From Lachnospiraceae bacterium (GTDB taxonomy: Bacteria > Bacillota > Clostridia > Lachnospirales > Lachnospiraceae): DNA of 64,000 bases. Shown in pieces: positions 13,447 through 23,719 of this stretch (the first letter of the stretch is position 1; each line of letters starts with the position of its first letter). The stretch lies in contig JAFLSY010000006.1 in assembly GCA_022510745.1 (NCBI GenBank), forward strand, positions 62,001-126,000, given 5' to 3'. The notes below the pieces were generated by a model that worked only from the letters and a program-made list of their open reading frames with translations, was not told the DNA's origin and made no database searches. Both the position numbers and the translations under genes were made by a program.

Positions 13447-14907
13447 CTATTCACGTATGCTGCCATCCGGGTTATATTCAGTTATTATTGTGCTGCCATC
13501 CGGGTTATACCATGTCAGCTTCGTTATGTTGCCGGCTGCATCATACTCATACTCATACCAACCACGTATACTGCCATCCGAGTTGTACCATGTATCCTTC
13601 GTGTTGTTGCCGGCTGCATCATGTTCAAATTCTACCCACTCACTTATGCTGCCATCCGGGTTATACCATGTTTCTTTTACTGTGTTGCCGTCCGTATCAT
13701 ATTCAAATTCAAACCAATAATCTATAGTGCCATCCGGGTTATACCATGTTCCTTTTGTTTGGTTGCCGTGCCCATCATATTCATATTCATACGATAAGCT
13801 GCCATCTGGATTATAGTGTGTAGCTTTCATAAGATATCCATCCGCATCATATTCATCCTCATACGATAAGCTGCCATCTGAGTTATACCCTGTTTCTTTT
13901 GTTCTGTTGCCGTCCGCATCATATTCATGCTCAGCCCAATAATCTATAGTGCCATCCGGGTTATAGAATGTATCCTTCGTTCTGTTGCCGTGCGTATCAT
14001 ATTCAAATTCAAACCAATAATCTATAGTGCCATCCGGGTTATACCGTGTTCCTTTTGTTTCGTTGCCGTGCGTATCATATTCATTTTCATACCAATAATC
14101 TATAGTGCCATCCGGGTTATAGTATGTGTCTTTTACTATGTTGCCGTCCGCATCATATTCAAGCTCAACCCAATAATCTATATGGCCATCCGGGTCGTAC
14201 CTTGTAACTTTTGTGTTGTTGCCATTCGCATCATATTCATACTCATGCGATAAGCTGCCATCCGGGTTATAGAATGTATCTTTCGTTCTGTTGCCGAGCG
14301 CATCATATTCAAACTCAACCCAAAAATCTATGCTGCCATCCGGGTTATAGTATGTAACTTTTGTTTCGTTGCCGAGCGCATCATATTCACACTCATACCA
14401 ACTGCGTATGCTGCCATCCGGGTTGTACCATGTAACTTTTGTGTTGTTGCCATTCGCATCATATTCACACTCATACCAACTGTGTATGCTGCCATCCGGG
14501 TTATACCATGTTCCTTTTGTTTCGTTGCCGAGCGCATCATATTCACATTCAACCCACTCACGTATAGTGCCATCCGGGTTATACCATGTTCCTTTTGTTT
14601 CGTTTCCGTCAGCGTCATATTCAAACTCAACCCAAAAATCTATGCTGCCATCCGGGTTATACACTGTTTGCTTCGTAATATTCCCGTCTGCATCATATTC
14701 GACTAACGCATAACTGCCATCCGGATAATAGATTTCTTCAACGCTGCCGCTTGGTTCCACGTGGTCGCCTGAATCAACGCTGCCGCTTGGTTCCACGTGG
14801 TCACTTGGTTCCGCACTGCCGCTTGGCTCCACACTGTTACCGCAGCCCGAAAGCATCATTGCCGCTATGGCTGCAAACATTATTACCGTTAAACCCCTCT
14901 TTTTCAT
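13447..14907 (-). CDS. Lipoprotein with about 16 tandem YD-like repeats
   Basis: A 486-residue predicted lipoprotein. Residues 1-22 are a signal peptide ending in a lipobox (MMLSGCG). A linker with EPSGS/DHVEPSGSV repeats follows, then about 16 tandem repeats of 22-26 residues with the consensus YNPDGSIDxWxExEYDAxGNxTKxTx. This is the YD/RHS-type beta-repeat, here without any RHS core or toxin domain. Such proteins are surface-exposed and may bind carbohydrate or partner proteins. ATG at 14907 is chosen; a GTG at 14925 in the same frame is possible. The gene sits between degraded element ends, so it is likely cargo of an older insertion. Confidence 0.85.
   Translation of the reverse strand: MKKRGLTVIMFAAIAAMMLSGCGNSVEPSGSAEPSDHVEPSGSVDSGDHVEPSGSVEEIYYPDGSYALVEYDADGNITKQTVYNPDGSIDFWVEFEYDADGNETKGTWYNPDGTIREWVECEYDALGNETKGTWYNPDGSIHSWYECEYDANGNNTKVTWYNPDGSIRSWYECEYDALGNETKVTYYNPDGSIDFWVEFEYDALGNRTKDTFYNPDGSLSHEYEYDANGNNTKVTRYDPDGHIDYWVELEYDADGNIVKDTYYNPDGTIDYWYENEYDTHGNETKGTRYNPDGTIDYWFEFEYDTHGNRTKDTFYNPDGTIDYWAEHEYDADGNRTKETGYNSDGSLSYEDEYDADGYLMKATHYNPDGSLSYEYEYDGHGNQTKGTWYNPDGTIDYWFEFEYDTDGNTVKETWYNPDGSISEWVEFEHDAAGNNTKDTWYNSDGSIRGWYEYEYDAAGNITKLTWYNPDGSTIITEYNPDGSIRE
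13450..14740 (-). repeat. Coding tandem repeat, unit about 66-78 bp
   Basis: The array inside the YD-repeat gene. Units begin at TAYAACCCGGATGGC (minus strand) and differ by whole codons: long units of 26 codons and short ones of about 22-24 codons that lack the IDxWx part. Near-identical units make copy-number change by recombination likely. The array produces long open frames on both strands that are artefacts. Confidence 0.85.
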
Positions 14908-15159
14908 ATCTGTCTCTCTTTCCACCGCTTTAGCGGCTATTTTGTAGTGTATATTTCCCTATTTGAACGGTGATGGGCAATTCTCGTTGACCGTTAATAA
15001 CGTTTAATTAATAATGATGATAACATAAGAGAAAGTAAATGAAAATAGATAGTTTTTGGGTGTGTTATTATATGATCAGAAAAGGAAAAGAGCGGTACAA
15101 AATGTTAGAAGGTGATTTGCCGCCCGGAGCATTGAAATCTCTCCTTTGGACTAAAGGTG

Positions 15160-15216
15160 CCTGTTTCTGCGCACACAAAAAGCAGGTGATTGCACATCTT
15201 CTTTTTAAAGTGTAAC
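15160..15216. repeat. Short degraded left end of a tRNA-Gly element (copy C)
   Basis: GCGCACACAAAAAGCAGGTGATTGCACATCTTC-like sequence: the first half matches the att core side of copy B (CACACAAAAAGCAGGTGAT), the second half its right side (GCACATCTTCTTTTTAAAGTGTAA). The 50 or so bases between them in copy B are missing, as if by deletion. Confidence 0.5.
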
Positions 15217-15253
15217 AAAGAACAAAATCAACGTTTGGCTATTTCAATCCTGT

Positions 15254-15484
15254 CTACATCAAACCGATTGCTTTCATGGCTTCCTCTGATGAGACAAAAG
15301 ATTTGCAGTCGGGGTCTTCCTTTATTTCTGCCAACATTTTTTTATCCCATTCATCAGGGGAAACAGTTTCCACACTATCCCAGTCAAAGGAAAAATGTTT
15401 GGTAATCATATCCCAAATTTTTTCTGCCTCAATATCACTCATAACGGTAACTGCACCAAGTATTCTTTCTTTTACTGCACTCAT
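15254..15484 (-). CDS. Probable antitoxin of a RelE/ParE-type pair
   Basis: A 76-residue acidic protein encoded 14 bases downstream of a RelE-like toxin. It has a predicted helical N-terminus (MSAVKERILGAVTVMSDIEAEKIWDMI) and an acidic C-terminus with a DEWDKKMLAEIKEDPDCKSFVSSEEAM pattern, as in small antitoxins that wrap the toxin. The helical opening resembles antitoxins seen beside RelE toxins in Clostridia, but the DNA-binding fold is not clear. The order toxin first, antitoxin second is like higBA. Confidence 0.7.
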   Translation of the reverse strand: MSAVKERILGAVTVMSDIEAEKIWDMITKHFSFDWDSVETVSPDEWDKKMLAEIKEDPDCKSFVSSEEAMKAIGLM

Positions 15485-15498
15485 ATAAAAGCCTCCTT

Positions 15499-15729
15499 TT
15501 ACTTGTAAATCTGTCCACGGCTGTCGATCTTGTTAATATATAGTATGTCCCCGTTGCGGTCAAAAATAACTCGGTAATCTCCAATACGCAGACGATAACC
15601 ATCTTCTCCCTGTAATTTCTTCACATCACCCTTAGGAAGCTGGTTGATAGCATCTACAATACGAACACGTGTAGGCTTATCCTGCTTATTCAAAAATTTA
15701 ATAGCTTGCTTTGAATAATTTACAAGCAT
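15499..15729 (-). CDS. RelE/ParE-family toxin
   Basis: A 76-residue basic protein with the RelE fold pattern: N-terminal YSKQAIKFLNKQDKPTRVRIVDAI, then LQGEDGYRLRIGDYRVIFDRNGDILYINKIDSRGQIYK, where the RLRIGDYRVIF strand and the basic C-terminal residues are typical of mRNA interferases or gyrase poisons of this superfamily. The ATG at 15729 is better spaced from GGGGAG than the one at 15732. The pair lies between element-end scars (copy C and copy B), a common place for stability modules. Confidence 0.83.
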   Translation of the reverse strand: MLVNYSKQAIKFLNKQDKPTRVRIVDAINQLPKGDVKKLQGEDGYRLRIGDYRVIFDRNGDILYINKIDSRGQIYK

Positions 15730-15837
15730 CATATCTCCCCTAAAAATATGATATTTTGACTTTAGCGATTATGTGTTTATATTATACTACAGCAAATAAA
15801 AGAAGTCCATTAATTTAGCAGTTACACAAAAGGATTA

Positions 15838-16040
15838 GGCATCAAGGTTTCCCGACCAAAAAATAAAGCAAGGTGTAATCCCCTGCTTTCCGGCTTCGCC
15901 GGTATGTCTGCTCCACAGACTTGTGTGCTGCACACACAAAAAGCAGGTGATGGGAATCGAAAATTTAACCTGTTAAAAAATGTAGGTAGAAAGGGGCTTC
16001 GCACATCTTCTTTTTAAAGTGTAATCAAAAGTGTAATCAA
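15838..16040. repeat. Element left-end region (copy B) with integrase arm-type repeats
   Basis: Contains the exact attL at 15940-15961. At 15845-15871 there is a second, older att-like stretch (TTTCCCGACCAAAAAATAAAG) resembling the sequence just inside the right end (23623-23650). GTGTAATCAA occurs twice, at 16019-16028 and 16031-16040; the same 10-mer occurs twice at the right end. These are candidate arm-type binding sites for the integrase. Confidence 0.6.
15940..15961. other. Left attachment site (attL) of the tRNA-Gly element
   Basis: These 22 bases, beginning AAAGCAGGTGATGG, are identical to 23647-23668, which is the 3' end of tRNA-Gly plus two flanking bases. The match stops at both sides. 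This is the direct repeat left by integration of the element into the tRNA 3' end. Confidence 0.85.
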
Positions 16041-16060
16041 AATTCACACGGTATGTAATT

Positions 16061-16090
16061 AAGGCTGATTAAGTTCAGCCTTTTTTATTT
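16061..16090 (+). terminator. Rho-independent terminator near the element left end
   Basis: AAGGCTGA 16061-16068 pairs with TCAGCCTT 16075-16082, then TTTTTTATTT. No plus-strand gene ends just upstream in the integrated form. In the excised circle the integrase gene (ending at 23560) would read across the joined att site toward this terminator. Confidence 0.75.
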
Positions 16091-16118
16091 GTGAACGAAG
16101 AACTATTTAATTATAACA

Positions 16119-16139
16119 ATAACACAAAAAATGTGTTAT
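16119..16139. promoter_or_regulatory. Inverted repeat upstream of the element's first gene
   Basis: ATAACACA 16119-16126 and TGTGTTAT 16132-16139, perfect 8-bp arms with a 5-base A loop, 31 bases before the first start codon. Probably an operator or leader hairpin. Confidence 0.45.
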
Positions 16140-16169
16140 GCAAATAGAAAGTGAAAAGGAGAAAAGACT

Positions 16170-16505
16170 ATGAAGAAACTGAACTTATTCCAAAAATTTG
16201 ATTTTGCCGCTTGGCAGAAAGGTAAAGCATTCATGGTACAGGGTATCAGGTACAATGAGAAAAAGGGTTGTGTGTCATTGGATGTGATCATTGTAGAAGA
16301 TAACACGAATTATGGTGATGCTTCCGTGAGCAATCTTTTTGAAAAATTCAAAGTACATTGTATCAAGGATACAGATGATGATGATACCGAGAAATATCAA
16401 ATCAGGGATATGATACGCTTTACCAGTGTAGGCAAATGTACTGTATGGGGAGACTATGCAAGCCAGCTTAGCGTGGAAGCGGTCGTTGAGGTGGTAAAAC
16501 AATGA
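16170..16505 (+). CDS. Conserved-type element protein upstream of the TcpA gene, unknown function
   Basis: A 111-residue soluble protein with no membrane segment and no motif I can name. It has AAAGGAG upstream and overlaps the TcpA-like gene by four bases (ATGA), so translation is coupled. In Tn916/ICEBs1-type elements the gene before the coupling protein is a small DUF961 or DUF961-like protein; position and size fit, but the sequence match is too weak for me to assert it. The central acidic run (DTDDDDTEKY) may bind metal or be a linker. Confidence 0.6.
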   Translation: MKKLNLFQKFDFAAWQKGKAFMVQGIRYNEKKGCVSLDVIIVEDNTNYGDASVSNLFEKFKVHCIKDTDDDDTEKYQIRDMIRFTSVGKCTVWGDYASQLSVEAVVEVVKQ

Positions 16506-17749
16506 TGATAAGCAAGCGGAGATATTATCGCAATTTTCTGCTTGCCATGATGGTTATGGGCGTGCTTATATTTATGGGTGCGCCTATAGCCAACAAATAT
16601 CTATGGCATATAGATTTCATAACGGTGATTTGCAGATATGCGATAATAGGAGAAATGGTAATGATCACCTCTGCCCTAATCATTACATTGATAAAGAATA
16701 GGGGCATAAAAAACTACATAGAAAACAGGATACTCTTACAGTCCATAGAAACAAATCTCATGGCAATCGGTGCGTATACAAAAAAGGATGATAAAGTGTT
16801 TGTGGAACTGCCAAAAATCAGGATAAAAAGAGGTATCATCATAATCAGTCTGCGAAACTTAAAAATCCGTACTATCATAGAGAGATACTTAGACTCATTC
16901 AGCACGGCATTACCTGACAGATATATCGTGGAGGACTATTATATCTCACAGAATAACGCAGAAGTAAATATCATATATGAGGATATAAAGAATTATAGAT
17001 ATGAGCAGTACAATATATCTGATTATGTGGATATTATTAAGTCTATGAATTTATTGGACATATACTTTGACCGCAAACACATAGTAAATGTAAATGATCA
17101 TCCGCATTTTCTTATCAGTGGTTCGAGCGGTTCGGGTAAGTCCTATCTTGCAAATGAGATAGTGATACAGGCTATTGCTAAAGAGTGGGAAGTCGTGATA
17201 TTGGACCTGAAGCGCTCCTATGGCTTATATAGGGCTTTCGTCGATTATAGTTATGAATTGGATGATATTTTGGATAAATTGCAATCCGTGGAGTCTGAAA
17301 TGCTCTCAAGGATGGAAAAATTACAGCCGGCACTGGACAATAATCCAAGGACCCTTGCGATAGATATAGGATATAAACCCATGCTGGTCGTCATAGAAGA
17401 ATATATCTCTCTACAGGCTTCACTTGATAAGAAGAAAAAAGAGGAACTGGAACGTATCGTGAAAAATATCAGCGTGCTTGCAAGACAGAGCAATATACAT
17501 CTTATGATAGTGATGCAGTCAGCAGGGACAGAGAATATCCAGTCAACGACAAGGAGCAATCTGACTAAGGTGTTATTGGGAAATGCGCAGTCTAATATCT
17601 TGACCGCTACTTTTGGTACTGGTGTTGATATTCCAAATATCAATACGAAGATGCATAAAGGAGAGGGTCTGATACAATTAGACAGGATAACCATGTTAAG
17701 GGTACCGAGAATAGATGATATAGAGAACTTTAAGGATATGATCTTCTGA
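16502..17749 (+). CDS. FtsK/TcpA-type DNA-translocating ATPase (coupling protein)
   Basis: A 415-residue protein with two N-terminal membrane helices (about 11-28 and 40-65) and a cytoplasmic FtsK/SpoIIIE-type ATPase domain. Walker A is GSSGSGKS (207-214) and Walker B is PMLVVIEEY (293-301); the IMVMQSAG stretch is a typical sensor. In Tn916/ICEBs1-type elements and in many IMEs this protein brings the nicked element DNA to the mating channel. It is small for the family but complete. Codon use is strongly AT-rich, like the rest of the element. Confidence 0.85.
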   Translation: MMISKRRYYRNFLLAMMVMGVLIFMGAPIANKYLWHIDFITVICRYAIIGEMVMITSALIITLIKNRGIKNYIENRILLQSIETNLMAIGAYTKKDDKVFVELPKIRIKRGIIIISLRNLKIRTIIERYLDSFSTALPDRYIVEDYYISQNNAEVNIIYEDIKNYRYEQYNISDYVDIIKSMNLLDIYFDRKHIVNVNDHPHFLISGSSGSGKSYLANEIVIQAIAKEWEVVILDLKRSYGLYRAFVDYSYELDDILDKLQSVESEMLSRMEKLQPALDNNPRTLAIDIGYKPMLVVIEEYISLQASLDKKKKEELERIVKNISVLARQSNIHLMIVMQSAGTENIQSTTRSNLTKVLLGNAQSNILTATFGTGVDIPNINTKMHKGEGLIQLDRITMLRVPRIDDIENFKDMIF

Positions 17750-17775
17750 GGCGCCGTAGGCAAGCCTCAGAAGAT
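17741..17775. repeat. Perfect 12-bp inverted repeat at the end of the ATPase gene
   Basis: ATCTTCTGAGGC 17741-17752 and GCCTCAGAAGAT 17764-17775 around an 11-base loop; the left arm contains the stop codon. No T run follows, so it is not a standard terminator. It could be a processing hairpin or part of an origin of transfer together with the repeats just downstream. Confidence 0.6.
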
Positions 17776-17864
17776 ATAAAAATGATGTATATTTGTATAT
17801 CTAAAAATTATAGTTTACTTAAATGCTTAATGGGATTATAATTGGTTAAAAGAATTTCATTTGG

Positions 17865-17924
17865 CTTATCATTCCTTATCATTCCTTATCATTCCTTATC
17901 ATTCCTTATCATTCCTTATCATTG
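17865..17924. repeat. Six tandem 10-bp repeats
   Basis: CTTATCATTC is repeated six times without a gap (last copy ends in G). The period is close to one helical turn, so all copies face the same side of the DNA, as in protein-binding iterons. Confidence 0.9.
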
Positions 17925-17986
17925 CCAAATTGTATATTGTATATCAACAAACAACAGCAGACAATCAGAGATGTACAAAAATCTAC

Positions 17987-18070
17987 AGACTATCAAGAAA
18001 TCACAATAGACTGTCAAAGATTTTCAACAGACTGTCAAAAAATCACAAGAGATTGTCAAAAAATTATCAC
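17987..18070. repeat. Four tandem 21-bp iterons
   Basis: Units at 17987, 18008, 18029 and 18050, each 21 bp, with consensus AGACTGTCAAAAAATCACAAN. A fifth diverged copy (AGACAATCAGAGATG) starts at 17959 but is out of phase. TGACAATCTG at 18071-18080 is the inverse complement of the unit start (AGATTGTCA). Two helical turns per unit and the position upstream of no obvious coding need make this a candidate replication or transfer origin. Confidence 0.8.
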
Positions 18071-18139
18071 TGACAATCTGCTGAATTTCAAGATATACGA
18101 TATGCAAAATGATATGGAAATCTGAAAGGAGAATTTCAC

Positions 18140-18817
18140 ATGAGAAAAAAATTTCTATCAATCAGCATAGTTGCAATCTTATCTGTGACAATGCTTGTAG
18201 GCTGTGGAGACAATGCGGTTGAAACATCTATGGAGCCTACTGAAGCGGAAGAGATTGAAGCTGAAACAGAAGAGACAGAAGAAACGGAAGCTGAAGCAGA
18301 GGCTGAAGCAGAAGCAGAAGAAACTGAAGAGACTGAAGAAGAGATTGAAGAAGCCGAAGCTGAAGCTGAAGTTGAAGCAGAAGAGACTGAAGTAAGTGCT
18401 AAGACCGCTGATGTAGAAGAAGTTGAAGAAGATGAAGAAGTTGTAGTACCTGTACACACTCACAACTACGCACTCACTGCAAGTACTGCTGGTACTTCTT
18501 GTACAAACGCTGGTATTGATACCTACACCTGTAACTGCGGTGACAGCTACACAGTGGCAAACAACAACTACGGTACACATACATGGACTACTGAAACCTA
18601 CAGCGAAACAATCCATCATGATGCAACTATGGACTATGTTGATGGTTATATTTGTGGTTGTGGTATCTTCTGGGCATTTGGTAATACTTACCATCCTGAA
18701 TATGAGTGTCCTAATGGTTATTCAACTGGTGGTCAGTGGAGAGAAACTTCTCCCGCATATGATGAGGTTGTAAATCATTCTCGTACCTACTGCACAAGCT
18801 GTGGTGCACAGCAGTAA
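18140..18817 (+). CDS. Lipoprotein with Glu/Ala-rich stalk and Cys-pair repeat domain
   Basis: A 225-residue predicted lipoprotein: signal peptide with lipobox (MLVGCGD, Cys at 22), a stalk at about 33-100 of alternating Glu, Ala and Thr repeats (EAEAEAEAEE), then a C-terminal domain starting HTHNYALTAST. That domain shows the pattern HxY...TCTNAG...YTCNCGDSYT and further CxC/CxxC pairs, as in the short His/Cys repeats of clostridial surface proteins. Good ribosome binding site (GAAAGGAG). It is cargo of the element; role unknown, possibly adhesion or shielding. Its base composition is less AT-rich than its neighbours, partly because of the GAA/GCA repeats. Confidence 0.82.
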   Translation: MRKKFLSISIVAILSVTMLVGCGDNAVETSMEPTEAEEIEAETEETEETEAEAEAEAEAEETEETEEEIEEAEAEAEVEAEETEVSAKTADVEEVEEDEEVVVPVHTHNYALTASTAGTSCTNAGIDTYTCNCGDSYTVANNNYGTHTWTTETYSETIHHDATMDYVDGYICGCGIFWAFGNTYHPEYECPNGYSTGGQWRETSPAYDEVVNHSRTYCTSCGAQQ

Positions 18818-18857
18818 ACCTTTGGTCAACAAAATCTTTTCATAAACGCCAAACCTT

Positions 18858-18888
18858 AAGAACCTTGGTAAAATCCAGGGTTCTTTTG
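18858..18888 (+). terminator. Rho-independent terminator
   Basis: AAGAACC 18858-18864 pairs with GGTTCTT 18879-18885, followed by TTG and an A/T-rich stretch. It follows the lipoprotein gene by 40 bases. Confidence 0.65.
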
Positions 18889-19118
18889 ATAAAAAAATAA
18901 AAAATTTTTTTAGGGGTCTTAGATGGATAATCTGAGGCTCTTAATTTTACAAGATGTATGAAAAAAGATGTTTCATTTAATAAAAATCCAGTATTTAAGC
19001 GGTTTTAGAACAAAAAAATAATAACACGGATTTTTTGAAATGTAAATAGAAAATGAATTATAAAATAAAATTATACCATGTAAATAGATTGTTCGCAACA
19101 TTTTTTTAAAATTTTAGG
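18889..19118. other. AT-rich noncoding stretch
   Basis: Together with the promoter and leader that follow, about 425 bases between 18889 and 19312 lack a normal gene. This first part is very AT-rich with runs of A and T and no open frame of note. I see no repeat or RNA family in it. Confidence 0.6.
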
Positions 19119-19147
19119 TTTTCATATGCATAATTGTAGGCTATAAT
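19119..19147 (+). promoter_or_regulatory. Probable promoter of the first paralogue gene
   Basis: TATAAT at 19142-19147 with a weaker -35 box TTTTCA at 19119-19124, spacer 17. Transcription would start near 19154, giving a long leader of about 158 bases. That leader contains AAGTGA/TCACTT complementarity (about 19156-19188) and then the conserved segment at 19232-19305. Confidence 0.6.
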
Positions 19148-19224
19148 ATAAATAGAAAGTGACGTAAGCGTTCAAAGTTACTTCACTTATGGAGCAAAAA
19201 ATGGAATATAGGAACGGCTAGTCA

Positions 19225-19305
19225 CTAATGTAGGGAATTTTTGTAAAATGAATGTAACTGTAGACAGACCTGCAAAAGGTCATTTTATCTTATAGCATAA
19301 AGGAG
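19225..19305 (+). promoter_or_regulatory. Conserved leader, copy 1 (tiny ORF plus hairpin)
   Basis: From CTAATGT to the ribosome binding site this matches a segment before the second paralogue (20114-20190). Shared in order: CTAATGT, a GGAA ribosome-binding-like motif, AAAATG, TGTAAC, GTAGACAGAC, and a 5-bp hairpin GACCT-gcaaa-AGGTC. In copy 2 the stem is GACTT/AGGTC, still paired through a G-U. The leader may work through translation of the tiny ORF, through RNA structure, or both. Confidence 0.65.
19248..19295 (+). CDS. Tiny leader ORF, 15 codons, copy 1
   Basis: Encodes MNVTVDRPAKGHFIL. An AGGGAA motif lies about 10 bases upstream. The counterpart before the second paralogue encodes MTVTVDRLIKGL, so seven of the first eleven residues agree, including VTVDR. 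The stop is 17 bases before the next start, a distance at which translation could affect the main gene. Whether it is translated is inference. Confidence 0.45.
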   Translation: MNVTVDRPAKGHFIL

Positions 19306-19312
19306 TTTTGTT

Positions 19313-19984
19313 ATGAGTGAAATTAGAAAATTTATTTTTGATGAATTGAATACGGAGGAACAAAGATTAAAACAGCAGAATAATTTAGAAGCGCTGAAGA
19401 TGAAAGATGATATGGGAAATACAATCTATCATCCGTCATATTTGCATCCTGTGAATATAACAACAGATGGATATATTGGTTTTTATCCAGCTTTAGGTAC
19501 AAATTTTCATGAAACGATGGATATTGTGTACAAATTAATTGATGATAGCTTTCTTGAAGAGCATCTTAGAGACGTAATTGCAAAGGAAATGCAGGATAGG
19601 CTTAGTGCTTCAGAAGTTGACGTATTACTTGATATTGTGCTGAATAAACATATAAGATATGTTTATGATCTTGATTTTATGCGTAGAGAGTTTACGCAAG
19701 ATGAAATTGAAGATATTATATTAAAATTATATATTATAGAAGAAGCCGCTGTTATTGAATATTATTTAACGAAAGAAGAACTTACTGAAGAACAAACAAC
19801 TTTGCTTACATATTATTTTGAAAAAATAAAGGGGACGCCTTTTTTTGAGATGATTGAGAAAAATGCAAGTGAAAAACTTGTTATGCAGATGTTAAATAGA
19901 ATGAATTCAGTTGCTAAAAAATATTTATTTTGCTCTATACCAAGGTGTATGAAATGCAAAAAAGTTAAATATTTTCGTAAATAA
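19313..19984 (+). CDS. Element protein of unknown function, paralogue 1
   Basis: A 223-residue, mostly helical, acidic soluble protein with a basic Cys-containing tail (CSIPRCMKCKKVKY). I recognise no family. Residues 122-176 align without gaps to residues 99-153 of the protein at 20201-20767 (shared FM, VI, K, T, YF, IK, P positions, roughly 30 percent identity by eye), and KLIDDSFLEEHL (74-85) aligns to RLIDSDYIKYHI. So the two are distant paralogues. AAAGGAG precedes the start. The pair lies just before rep, which hints at a role in control of replication or in defence cargo, but nothing shows which. Confidence 0.75.
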   Translation: MSEIRKFIFDELNTEEQRLKQQNNLEALKMKDDMGNTIYHPSYLHPVNITTDGYIGFYPALGTNFHETMDIVYKLIDDSFLEEHLRDVIAKEMQDRLSASEVDVLLDIVLNKHIRYVYDLDFMRREFTQDEIEDIILKLYIIEEAAVIEYYLTKEELTEEQTTLLTYYFEKIKGTPFFEMIEKNASEKLVMQMLNRMNSVAKKYLFCSIPRCMKCKKVKYFRK

Positions 19985-20113
19985 TAATTGTGTTCTATAA
20001 TTGTAAAAGTTTTAACTAAAAATAAAATTAATAATTTTAGATAAAAAGTTTTAATTTTAAGCGTACTCGGCTTTTAGAGAAAATCAGAAAATTGGAAATT
20101 ATAAACTTTTTGT

Positions 20114-20190
20114 CTAATGTGTGGAAATTAATAAAATGACTGTAACCGTAGACAGACTTATTAAAGGTCTATGATTTATTAATAGATTGG
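20114..20190 (+). promoter_or_regulatory. Conserved leader, copy 2 (tiny ORF plus hairpin)
   Basis: Second copy of the leader at 19225-19305; see there for the shared pieces. About 60 bases align with few gaps although the surrounding intergenic sequence does not. Upstream of it (19985-20113) the DNA is AT-rich with no clear promoter; TAAGCGT at about 20058 is shared with the first leader region. Confidence 0.65.
20136..20174 (+). CDS. Tiny leader ORF, 12 codons, copy 2
   Basis: Encodes MTVTVDRLIKGL, with a TGGAA motif about nine bases upstream. The shared Thr codon differs only at its third base (ACT against ACC in copy 1). The stop is 26 bases before the next start codon. Confidence 0.45.
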   Translation: MTVTVDRLIKGL

Positions 20191-20200
20191 AGACAAACCT

Positions 20201-20767
20201 ATGAAAAAGAGTGATGAAATTTTAGATTTTGAAGAACTTTTTGACGTGCCTGGTATGGAAGCATCTGCTGCTAATATGATGCTTGAGGATTATGGTATCA
20301 AGTTATGTGTTCAAAATGAAGCGGCGAGAAAAAGTGTTTTGCGGCTGATAGATAGTGATTACATTAAATATCATATTAAATTCTCGATTGCATGTGCAGT
20401 ACCGGATGAATTTTATTATTACGAAAAGCCGAAAATTAAGATGTTGGCTGACTTGATTTATTATTATGGTGATTTCAATATTATAGATATGCGTTTTATG
20501 AAAAAATTTTTATCAGCTAGTGAGTGTTCTCGGCTTAAAAGTTTTTTGCAGAGCATGTATGAGTGGGACGTGATTGGTTATATACTTAGGAAACGGTCTA
20601 TAACAGATTATGAAATTGAGATTTTAAAAGAATACTTTAATATAATAAAAGATGACCCTAAATATGATGATAAAATCGATTTGTCTAAAAATCTTAAAAA
20701 GAAATTGTATAAATGTTTAGGCTTGGCATCAGAAGGCGTTGTTGATATTGCTTGTAATGCCTCTTAA
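20201..20767 (+). CDS. Element protein of unknown function, paralogue 2
   Basis: A 188-residue helical protein, distant paralogue of the one at 19313-19984 (see the alignment given there). It lacks the N-terminal 25 or so residues and the Cys-rich tail of paralogue 1. Ribosome binding site TTGGAGAC. The rep gene starts 22 bases after its stop, so the two are probably cotranscribed. No known domain. Confidence 0.75.
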   Translation: MKKSDEILDFEELFDVPGMEASAANMMLEDYGIKLCVQNEAARKSVLRLIDSDYIKYHIKFSIACAVPDEFYYYEKPKIKMLADLIYYYGDFNIIDMRFMKKFLSASECSRLKSFLQSMYEWDVIGYILRKRSITDYEIEILKEYFNIIKDDPKYDDKIDLSKNLKKKLYKCLGLASEGVVDIACNAS

Positions 20768-20789
20768 TGATGGAAAGGAGCTGAGTTAA

Positions 20790-21965
20790 ATGGCAAATGA
20801 TAATCCAACCTATCGGAATGTCATTCTCAGAATATCTGTCATTAACAAAATTCATGTTGATAATGGTGACCTCGGTGTAAAAGCTGGGGACACTGTTATC
20901 AATACGATTGAAGCAATCAAAAAGGTACTTGATGATTGGACGAAAACGAAAGATTTAAAGTATTATATGATTGAACATAATGCAGGTACTGAGAGGGCTC
21001 ATGTACATATAGTCTTATGTTTCGCAAAAAATTCACAGTGTACTGGCAAGACACTGAAGAATAAATTTCCATATGGATTTATCGAAAAATGTAAGTATGG
21101 AGTTAAGAATGCAGTGCAGTATTTGGTGCATATGAACAATCCCGAAAAAACGCAGTATTCATGGGATGAGGTTATAACTAATGCACCGCATAAACTTGAA
21201 TTTTTTAAAGTGCCGGGTAGACAGATTTTGACTGTAAAGGCTCAAACAGTTATTGATAATATTATATCGGGTAAATTAAAGGAACATGAAATAGATAAAA
21301 TTGATCCTGATGTCTATATTGAGTTTGGTACAAAAATCAGGAATGCATTTGACTATAGACAAAAGCTTGTTATGACTAATCCTGAACGTGATATAGAGGT
21401 ACATGTTTTAGAAGGCCCCAGTCGCGTTGGAAAATCAACTTTTTGTAGAGTAATGGCTAAAAAATTTAATAAAAGTATTTATTTTTCATCATCCTCGAAT
21501 GACCCCTATCAAGATTTGAAAACTCAAGATATTTTAGTCTTAGATGATTTTGATTATAGGCATATTAAGATTGACGATATGAAGAAAATGCTTGACCCTT
21601 TTATAATGTCTACTATGTATGCAAGGTATAAGAATAAATTGTTTGTTGGAGATACTATCTTTATCTGTACTAATACTCCTATTATAACGTGGTATTCTCA
21701 AGAAAGTTTGATTGATAGAGAAGCAATATTTGGTAGGATTACTTCTGTAATGAGATTTGAGTTTTCTGATACAAAATATGTTGCAAACTATACTGTGAAT
21801 GAAATCGTTAAGGTAGAAGATGGTACAGAAGATGATATTGGTAATGGTTTTACATATAAACGTGTTAGTGATGAGATTAAAGTATTTGATATGAGAAAAT
21901 ATATTGATACTTCTCTTAACAAGACAAAGAATGAAGAATTTTTAAAAATGCTGGACGAAATTTAA
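20790..21965 (+). CDS. Rolling-circle replication initiator with HUH nuclease and SF3 helicase domains
   Basis: A 391-residue Rep. The N-terminal domain is of the Rep_2/pMV158 RepB type: HUH motif HVH (71-73) and the tyrosine motif AVQYLVHMNNPEKTQY, with Tyr111 the likely nicking residue. The C-terminal half is a superfamily 3 helicase of the kind in CRESS-DNA viruses: Walker A GPSRVGKST (209-217), Walker B ILVLDDF (248-254), motif C FICTN (291-295). Family knowledge: such HUH-SF3 proteins occur in plasmids and integrated elements of Firmicutes and are related to the Reps of small ssDNA viruses. Here it would replicate the excised circle and may act as relaxase for transfer, as no other relaxase is present. 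Confidence 0.9.
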   Translation: MANDNPTYRNVILRISVINKIHVDNGDLGVKAGDTVINTIEAIKKVLDDWTKTKDLKYYMIEHNAGTERAHVHIVLCFAKNSQCTGKTLKNKFPYGFIEKCKYGVKNAVQYLVHMNNPEKTQYSWDEVITNAPHKLEFFKVPGRQILTVKAQTVIDNIISGKLKEHEIDKIDPDVYIEFGTKIRNAFDYRQKLVMTNPERDIEVHVLEGPSRVGKSTFCRVMAKKFNKSIYFSSSSNDPYQDLKTQDILVLDDFDYRHIKIDDMKKMLDPFIMSTMYARYKNKLFVGDTIFICTNTPIITWYSQESLIDREAIFGRITSVMRFEFSDTKYVANYTVNEIVKVEDGTEDDIGNGFTYKRVSDEIKVFDMRKYIDTSLNKTKNEEFLKMLDEI

Positions 21966-21980
21966 AATTTTTATTGTTAC

Positions 21981-22039
21981 GTATTCACTCTATATGGTGT
22001 AATGCTAGTAAATAGATATTATGAGTATAGGGTGAATAC
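21981..22039. repeat. 14-bp inverted repeat downstream of rep
   Basis: GTATTCACTCTATA 21981-21994 and TATAGGGTGAATAC 22026-22039, one G-U mismatch, 31-base loop. No T tract follows. It could be a double-strand origin hairpin, an operator pair for the next promoter, or a terminator-like stem. Confidence 0.6.
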
Positions 22040-22060
22040 AAAACACAAAGGAGAAAATTC

Positions 22061-22123
22061 ATGCCAAAAAGAAAATTAGAAGAACTAGAGATAAGTTTAA
22101 AATGTGGTGTGAGGAAATCTTAG
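22061..22123 (+). CDS. Mini-ORF of 20 codons with a strong ribosome binding site
   Basis: AAAGGAG eight bases before ATG, then MPKRKLEELEISLKCGVRKS and stop. The position directly before the integrase gene is where excisionase (xis) genes sit in related elements; this could be the start of a decayed xis or a leader peptide. The following 165 bases (22124-22288) are over 80 percent A+T with several copies of AAAATAAT and no gene, ending at the integrase start. Confidence 0.4.
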   Translation: MPKRKLEELEISLKCGVRKS

Positions 22124-22288
22124 ATATTAAATAAAATAATAGATATAAATTGATAACAGATAAATAAAATTATTTCATAAAATAAAAATCTTAAAATAAT
22201 TAAAATCATATCAAAATAATACATTGTAAGATATAAATTTCAAAATAATCCCATATAATTTTTTCCTTACACTGCTAGAAGGCGGTTT

Positions 22289-23560
22289 ATGATGGAAGAA
22301 GATTTTATCAGTCAAAACGACGTGTTGCAACACCTTCTTTTACGGTGTAATATGACAGTAGAAGATGTGCAGGCTGAAGTTGAAAATATGAGAGATAAAA
22401 AATATTTAGAAACTCACTTGTACGAGATATGGCAGGGGACTGACGGTAGATGGCGAACATATTTACCGGACCCTACAGCAAAATTAGAAAGGCGGTTGAT
22501 TGCAAAAAGTACAAGAGAAAGTCTTGAAAAAGAAATCATACGGTATTATAGGTCCATAGACGAACGGGTACAGGCAAAGCGTATTACTTTAAGAGAGTGG
22601 TATCAAAAATGGCTTGATTACAAGAAACTGCAAACAAGGTCTGATATGTATGTCCGTAAAATTGACAGTGATTGGAGCAGATATTACAAAGACAGTAAGC
22701 TGATAGATATTCCTATTGTTAATTTGGATTATGATACATTACAGGAATGGGCATTACGCATTGTAAGAGAGAAGAAGCTGACTAAGAAACAATATTACAA
22801 TATGTCTTTGATTATCAGACAATCCCTTGATTATGCAGTACAGAAAAGGCTGATTACCGAAAATCCATTTTTAAGAGTGAAAGTCGATGGTAAGTTGTTT
22901 CGGCCAAAGAAGAAGCCTGTAGATAAATCACAGGTATTTCTGACGGATGAACAGCCAATGATTGAACAGGAAGCCTATAGTGATTTTGCTAAGACGGGAA
23001 CGGTATCTTGCCTTGCAATTCCATTTGCATTTCAGACAGGATTACGCTTAGGTGAAATCGTAGCTCTAAAAGAAAGTGATATTGACGGCAACTATATTCA
23101 TGTTCAGCGTATGGAAGTAAGACAGGTGGAACAGTTGGAAGATGGATCGTGGTCGAAACAGATTTTTGCTGTAGTAGATTATACGAAAACAGACGCAGGA
23201 GACAGGCAGGTTTATTTGAGTAAGACAGCAAAGAAAATTCTCGCTGACATCATTTCCAGCAACAGACAGCATGGATATTCAGACAGTGATTTTCTGTTTC
23301 TCGGTGAAAAGGGACGTGTTCATGCAAAAAGTGTGGATTATCGTATCAGAAAATACTGCCGTCACATAGGCATATCAGAGAAAGCGCTTCACAAGATAAG
23401 AAAGACTTATATCAGCACTCTGATTGACAGTGGATTGAATATCAACGAAATACGCAAGCTGGCAGGACATGAGGACGAGCGTACAACCTATAATAATTAC
23501 TGTTTTAACCGTATGACAAACGAGCAGACAGAAAATCTTTTGGAAGCTGCACTCAACTAA
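22289..23560 (+). CDS. int: Tyrosine integrase
   Basis: A 423-residue site-specific recombinase. N-terminal arm-binding region (residues about 40-95, with GRWRTYLPDP), a core-binding SAM-like domain (about 100-190) and the catalytic domain with TGLRLGEI (first Arg), HKIRKT (H-x-x-R), LAGHED (His) and Tyr in TTYNNYCF. It resembles integrases of Tn916-like and tRNA-targeting clostridial elements. AAGGCGG precedes ATG. The gene points toward tRNA-Gly and stops 86 bases before attR; two GTGTAATCAA repeats lie just after the stop. Confidence 0.93.
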   Translation: MMEEDFISQNDVLQHLLLRCNMTVEDVQAEVENMRDKKYLETHLYEIWQGTDGRWRTYLPDPTAKLERRLIAKSTRESLEKEIIRYYRSIDERVQAKRITLREWYQKWLDYKKLQTRSDMYVRKIDSDWSRYYKDSKLIDIPIVNLDYDTLQEWALRIVREKKLTKKQYYNMSLIIRQSLDYAVQKRLITENPFLRVKVDGKLFRPKKKPVDKSQVFLTDEQPMIEQEAYSDFAKTGTVSCLAIPFAFQTGLRLGEIVALKESDIDGNYIHVQRMEVRQVEQLEDGSWSKQIFAVVDYTKTDAGDRQVYLSKTAKKILADIISSNRQHGYSDSDFLFLGEKGRVHAKSVDYRIRKYCRHIGISEKALHKIRKTYISTLIDSGLNINEIRKLAGHEDERTTYNNYCFNRMTNEQTENLLEAALN

Positions 23561-23564
23561 AAAA

Positions 23565-23584
23565 GTGTAATCAAGTGTAATCAA
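23565..23584. repeat. Paired 10-bp repeats at the element right end
   Basis: GTGTAATCAA at 23565-23574 and again at 23575-23584. The same 10-mer occurs twice at the left end (16019 and 16031). Probable arm-type integrase binding sites. Confidence 0.6.
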
Positions 23585-23646
23585 AAAATTAAAAAAGTAA
23601 AAATTGCGGGAAGTCAGTAAAATCAAGGCTTCCCGAGCAAAAAAAC

Positions 23647-23668
23647 AAAGCAGGTGATGGGAATCGAA
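23647..23668. other. Right attachment site (attR) within tRNA-Gly
   Basis: Identical over 22 bases to 15940-15961. It covers the discriminator, the 3' acceptor strand and most of the T-arm side of the tRNA, so insertion kept the tRNA intact. Confidence 0.85.
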
Positions 23669-23719
23669 CCCACGTATCCAGCTTGGAAGGCTGGTGTTCT
23701 ACCATTGAACTACACCTGC
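23649..23719 (-). tRNA. tRNA-Gly (anticodon TCC)
   Basis: 71 nt. Acceptor stem GCAGGTG/CACCTGC, D-loop with GTTCAATGGTAGAAC, anticodon stem CCAGC/GCTGG around loop CTTCCAA (anticodon TCC), T-arm GTGGGTTCGATTCCCAT, discriminator T. CCA is not encoded. It is the integration site of the element to its left (downstream side). Confidence 0.95.

Follow-up and report, generated by a model that had tools for sequence, protein, structure and literature searches.

Why should two genes whose products are strongly diverged be preceded by almost the same leader? The window considered here (the whole stretch of DNA that was analysed, 64,000 nucleotides from a contig of a Lachnospiraceae bacterium) contains such a pair: a block of 57 bp stands ahead of the genes that start at 19313 and 20201, and whose products are called P1 and P2 below. 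We argue, with a probability of about 0.5, that both leaders derive from a single cis-regulatory block (operator and/or 5'-untranslated region), which was duplicated and stands ahead of paralogous accessory genes in an integrative and mobilizable element (IME).

The repeated leader and the genes that follow it

The two copies of the block lie on the plus strand, at 19225–19281 (copy 1) and 20114–20169 (copy 2), 888–889 bp apart, and 45 of the 57 columns of their alignment are identical (79% nucleotide identity). Their local score, 58, is not reached by any of 2000 dinucleotide-shuffled pairs (maximum 41; Gumbel p 6.7e-7), which bears out the claim of an earlier, sequence-only reading of this DNA that the same leader precedes both genes. 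The pair is also the best match among the upstream regions of the window ORFs that were kept, the next one scoring 31, and this comparison did not reveal the block upstream of the other genes of the element. The distance between the end of the block and the start codon is 31 bases for P1 and P2 alike. The identity is patchy, with one indel and invariant boxes interspersed, and the flanking sequence aligns weakly. TAAAAT is present in both copies and a -35 match is listed for copy 2 only; no convincing -35/-10 promoter common to both leaders was found. A SigH promoter, judged by eye, was dropped, copy 2 having no -10 element.

P1 (223 amino acids, 19313–19984, plus strand) and P2 (188 amino acids, 20201–20767, plus strand) are orphan proteins, without a family match above the cut-off in Pfam, PHROG or NCBIfam. 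BLASTP aligns residues 72–189 of P1 with residues 46–169 of P2, including the KLID/RLID block (E=2e-7, 26% identity over 124 columns). This match confirms the earlier description of the two genes as strongly diverged paralogues that share this block: P1 and P2 are true, very diverged paralogues. When the coding regions are aligned by codon, the identity is 28% at the amino-acid level and 46% at the nucleotide level, to be compared to 79% for the leaders; the leader had been said to be much better conserved than its surroundings, and it is.

The AlphaFold model of P2 is nearly all helical (pLDDT 73) and has no convincing structural relative in the PDB or among viral structures. P1 is predicted to be mostly helical, from a poor model (pLDDT 56). 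Homologues of P1 or P2 were not found in viral contigs, phages, plasmids, the genomes of the genus or the PDB. The search of the family sample returned one match, which has internal stop codons, and that of the class-wide sample returned four weak matches, of which the three that were inspected look unrelated and the fourth has an internal stop. The matches of P1 to Csx1 and to DUF7945/TRASH are too weak for use.

The leader is just as isolated. With up to 3 mismatches, the block occurs in its own genome only at the two known sites and, among 299 genomes of the family, only as these two copies, being absent from the 298 others. A covariance model run over 138 genomes of the genus gave only weak further matches, the seven best of which look like chance on inspection, and exact scans of viral and genome contig collections found the core of the block without the rest of it. 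Overall, the searches of the genus, family and class samples, and of the viral, phage, plasmid, Rfam, Pfam, PHROG, NCBIfam and PDB collections, revealed nothing credibly related to P1, P2 or the leader. Since there is no third copy, it is from two sequences that we infer that the block is under selection.

A putative mobile element around the two genes

The sequence-only reading had given the genes no mobile-element context; such a context is established by direct repeats and by empty sites. Two exact copies of a 22-bp sequence, AAAGCAGGTGATGGGAATCGAA, found at 15940 and 23647, delimit an integrated element of 7.7 kb (15940–23668). The second copy lies at the 3' end of a tRNA-Gly(TCC) gene (23649–23719), and the element is a putative IME inserted at this end of the gene. 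When the flanks of the element are joined, they match two congeneric genomes (G332 and G310) across the junction with 84% identity (query 48–318 and 46–318); on this alignment, the matching sites are empty integration sites.

The genes of the element are all on the plus strand. The first (16170–16505) codes for a 111-aa protein, whose homologues in the related elements L053 and L054 adjoin the ATPase–Rep module. It is followed by the gene of an FtsK/HerA-like ATPase (16502–17749), which is a candidate TcpA-type coupling protein (FtsK_SpoIIIE PF01580, E=1.1e-7, above the cut-off; PHROG FtsK-like, E=5e-20). Three cargo genes separate the ATPase gene from the relaxase gene: that of a putative lipoprotein (18140–18817; an N-terminal hydrophobic stretch, then a Cys, and EAEE-like repeats), and those of P1 and P2. 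The 391-aa rolling-circle initiator/relaxase (Rep, 20790–21965) combines an HUH Rep_OBD domain (PF01719) and an SF3 RNA_helicase domain (PF00910), both above the gathering cut-off, and a tyrosine integrase comes last (22289–23560; PF00589, E=3.5e-18). No further conjugation gene, and no full T4SS mating-pore set, was recognised among the ORFs of the 7.7-kb element; nor did Pfam, PHROG and NCBIfam reveal a known family of DNA-binding regulators among its genes.

Only 22 bases separate the stop codon of P2 from the relaxase gene, and the two genes likely form one operon. The GC3 is low in P1, P2 and Rep (22–28%) compared to the integrase and the ATPase (37–44%). Because of this short gap and the common low GC3, P1, P2 and Rep look like one module.

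Relatives of Rep are present in genomes of the family, and several of the Rep loci that were fetched share the ATPase–Rep–integrase layout; P1, P2 and the leader were not found in these related elements. One of them, L056, has two similar-looking lipoprotein genes and a repeated upstream region with a good promoter match, and by analogy, elements of this kind may undergo duplications of a gene plus its control region. Near the core genes of L053, L054, L056, L057 and L058, there is a gene for a putative secreted protein or lipoprotein, as at 18140–18817 here.

Some other features of the window are worth recording. The motif AAATAGAAA(G/A)TGA is seen at 16115–16155, before the first gene of the element, at 19017–19057, before P1, and also around 19150; it may be a motif common to promoter regions of the element. 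At 15179 there is a 12-bp piece of the att core (AAAGCAGGTGAT), and between it and attL stands a pair of small genes on the minus strand that look like RelBE by eye (15254–15732); the 15179–15940 segment may be what is left of a previous integration at this tRNA. Farther from the element, a DUF3800-XI RNA is detected at 567–614 (48.4 bits, for an Rfam gathering score of 37.8), and a 492-aa lipoprotein-like protein with YD/RHS-looking repeats (EYDADGN..YNPDGS) is encoded at 13447–14925 on the minus strand.

Possible functions of the leader

Each leader contains a tiny ORF on the plus strand (MNVTVDRPAKGHFIL at 19248–19295 and MTVTVDRLIKGL at 20136–20174), and one hypothesis is that its translation, or a hairpin, sets the expression of the downstream gene by translational or transcriptional attenuation. 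It is in keeping with this that both ORFs start with ATG, are 12–15 codons long and end shortly before the ATG of the gene, and that copy 1 has a weak terminator-like hairpin followed by a T-rich tail. The sequence-only reading had seen in these ORFs a peptide M-x-VTVDR-x-x-KG with one synonymous change. The ORFs and the synonymous change are indeed present, but over 11 codons there are six substitutions (one at the first codon position, three at the second and two at the third), which change three amino acids. Random placement of six changes is expected to alter 3.96 amino acids and alters three or fewer in 31% of the trials (P=0.31), in a test whose power is low with two short sequences. The Shine–Dalgarno duplexes of the tiny ORFs (-4.8 kcal/mol for copy 1 and -3.3 kcal/mol for copy 2) are the weakest measured in the element, whose genes range from -6.4 to -9.0 kcal/mol. 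Moreover, the conservation reaches upstream of the ATG and ceases before the end of the ORF, and the two ORFs differ in length (15 and 12 codons) and C-terminus. Since the substitutions are random-like, the Shine–Dalgarno duplexes are the weakest, the conservation crosses the ATG and the ORF ends differ, the tiny ORFs probably do not encode a conserved peptide, and the peptide is likely a by-product of a conserved nucleotide block; the earlier description of the ORF as a conserved one is not supported by these comparisons. Searching the viral contigs for the degenerate peptide pattern gave no match. The VTVDR of FeoB (2405) and the VIVDRP of a pyrophosphatase gene (12887), in the same window, were taken as chance likenesses of a short motif.

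The RNA itself gives little more to the idea of attenuation. The 5-bp hairpin GACCT/AGGTC that had been noticed is there, with a C-G to U-G change between the copies, but the folds of the leader RNAs are not better than those of shuffles (z -0.32 and -0.17), which speaks against a conserved RNA switch structure. The predicted folds differ, this single hairpin is the only pairing common to both leaders, no alternative pairing being shared, and one such base change among two sequences is negligible support for it. No Rfam family matches the leaders, either at the gathering threshold or with E up to 10. On these grounds, we consider attenuation quite unlikely.

The block could also be a DNA site for the HUH relaxase/initiator of the element, rather than a leader that regulates the genes themselves: either a transfer or replication origin, or an operator by which Rep, once bound, would control its own operon. 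Nick regions usually show a conserved box that comes after an inverted repeat. Here, the Rep_OBD and RNA_helicase initiator is encoded just downstream, an inverted repeat precedes each copy (19159–19226 before copy 1, z -1.5; an AT-rich one at 20037–20117 on the plus strand, RNA fold z -3.2, with a 3' arm that extends into the CTAA of copy 2) and copy 1 forms a short hairpin as single-stranded DNA. However, the two inverted repeats look unrelated in sequence, there are two copies of the block, each tied to the start of a paralogous gene, and the single-stranded DNA folds no better than shuffles. In addition, there are better origin candidates. Iteron-like arrays (a 10-mer repeated 5.9 times, then a 21-mer repeated 3.8 times, detected with TRF at 17865–18065 on the plus strand, between the ATPase and lipoprotein genes) are a candidate origin region of the element, and a 15-bp hairpin just after rep (21981–22039; z -3.3 compared to shuffles as single-stranded DNA) is a candidate oriT, replication origin or recombination-factor site. 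The leaders themselves fit the iteron profile poorly (rank 13 for copy 1 and 152 for copy 2), so the idea that they are copies of the iterons was rejected. A relaxase site is therefore an unlikely function for the block.

Another explanation dispenses with selection altogether: recombination or gene conversion may have recently replaced one leader with a copy of the other. Just two copies exist, a short distance apart on a mobile element, and conservation and copying look alike in two sequences, so that selection and recent copying or conversion are indistinguishable by sequence alone. Recent copying is expected to leave a sharp tract of high identity, though, whereas the 79% identity is patchy, interrupted by an indel, with invariant boxes and weak flanks, and we regard it as improbable. 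As to the possibility that the leader is a small RNA acting as a partner of the protein encoded next, or neutralising it, like in type III toxin–antitoxin systems, a repeat of the size of an RNA does stand directly ahead of each protein gene; but each gene has a single copy rather than tandem repeats, the leaders have neither a stable fold nor an Rfam match, and P1 and P2 have no meaningful match to a toxin in PADLOC, in Pfam or by fold, all of which makes this hypothesis very hard to believe.

We come back to the duplicated cis-regulatory block. That the leader and the gene were duplicated together, as initially proposed, is the most simple account of genes that diverged to near saturation behind a leader that changed much less. 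The contrast between 79% and 46% conservation, the significance against shuffles, the equal spacing of 31 bases and the presence of only two strong sites in the genome are in favor of the cis-regulatory reading; against it are the lack of a convincing common promoter and of a recognised regulator gene, and the existence of related elements that do not have the block. In this scenario, a gene would have been duplicated along with its control region inside the IME, the proteins would then have diverged to 28% identity, and most of the 57-bp block would have been kept because the same factor, encoded by the element or by the host, reads both copies. P1 and the transcription unit of P2–relaxase would thus be switched together, and the block would help set the expression of the relaxase/replication initiator, at the level of transcription or translation. 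Given the 22-bp gap between P2 and Rep and the low GC3 of P1, P2 and Rep, it is plausible that the block controls the module that contains the relaxase. A more speculative proposal, which we put forward as a long shot, is that P1 and P2 belong to an orphan family of small helical proteins with cognate recognition blocks, the latter being bound by P1/P2 or by the relaxase and timing the mobilisation of the IME.

To our knowledge, the regulation of small IMEs with rolling-circle-type relaxases has been little studied. If the block controls the P2–relaxase unit, it provides a compact and testable entry point into the activation of such an element, and P1 and P2 become candidates for its regulators or for accessory proteins of the relaxosome; a block that is just a duplicated promoter region would be an ordinary remnant of gene duplication. 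Until further copies come to light, the interest of an orphan regulatory block and a pair of orphan proteins, in a mobile element of a known kind, will stay modest.

Comparison with known systems

The leader-peptide attenuator of mef(E)/mel, as far as it is described in PMC4335068, likewise has a short leader region that separates a promoter from its gene, and is carried by a mobile element. In that case, experiments demonstrated attenuation, whereas the coding-signature and RNA-fold tests are negative for the present leaders.

Regarding the initiator, plasmids of phytoplasma, Lactococcus and Staphylococcus encode proteins of the same Rep family (26–32% identity over much of the query). These are small plasmids, and P1 and P2 are unmatched in the plasmid collection.

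The closest parallel is with the IMEs whose relaxase belongs to the superfamily Rel_PF01719-PF00910, described by Coluzzi et al. 2017 (PMC5357655; see also the review PMC5704250). According to the portion of that description we rely on, these IMEs are compact, have a tyrosine integrase and often, although not necessarily, a TcpA coupling protein, and are often inserted at tRNA or ribosomal-protein genes. Those described there are from streptococci, while the host of the present element is of another genus; the lipoprotein, P1, P2 and the duplicated leader between ATPase and relaxase are absent from this portion of the description, and, as a further difference, no recognisable excisionase gene was seen between Rep and integrase in the present element. 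The similarities lie in the PF01719 and PF00910 relaxase, the FtsK-related coupling protein upstream of it, the integrase in last position, the insertion at the 3' end of a tRNA gene, the compact size and the lack of a full T4SS set (PMC5357655, within the same limits). Judging from its gene content, the layout of the element matches this class, and we consider it a putative IME with a Rel_PF01719-PF00910 relaxase.
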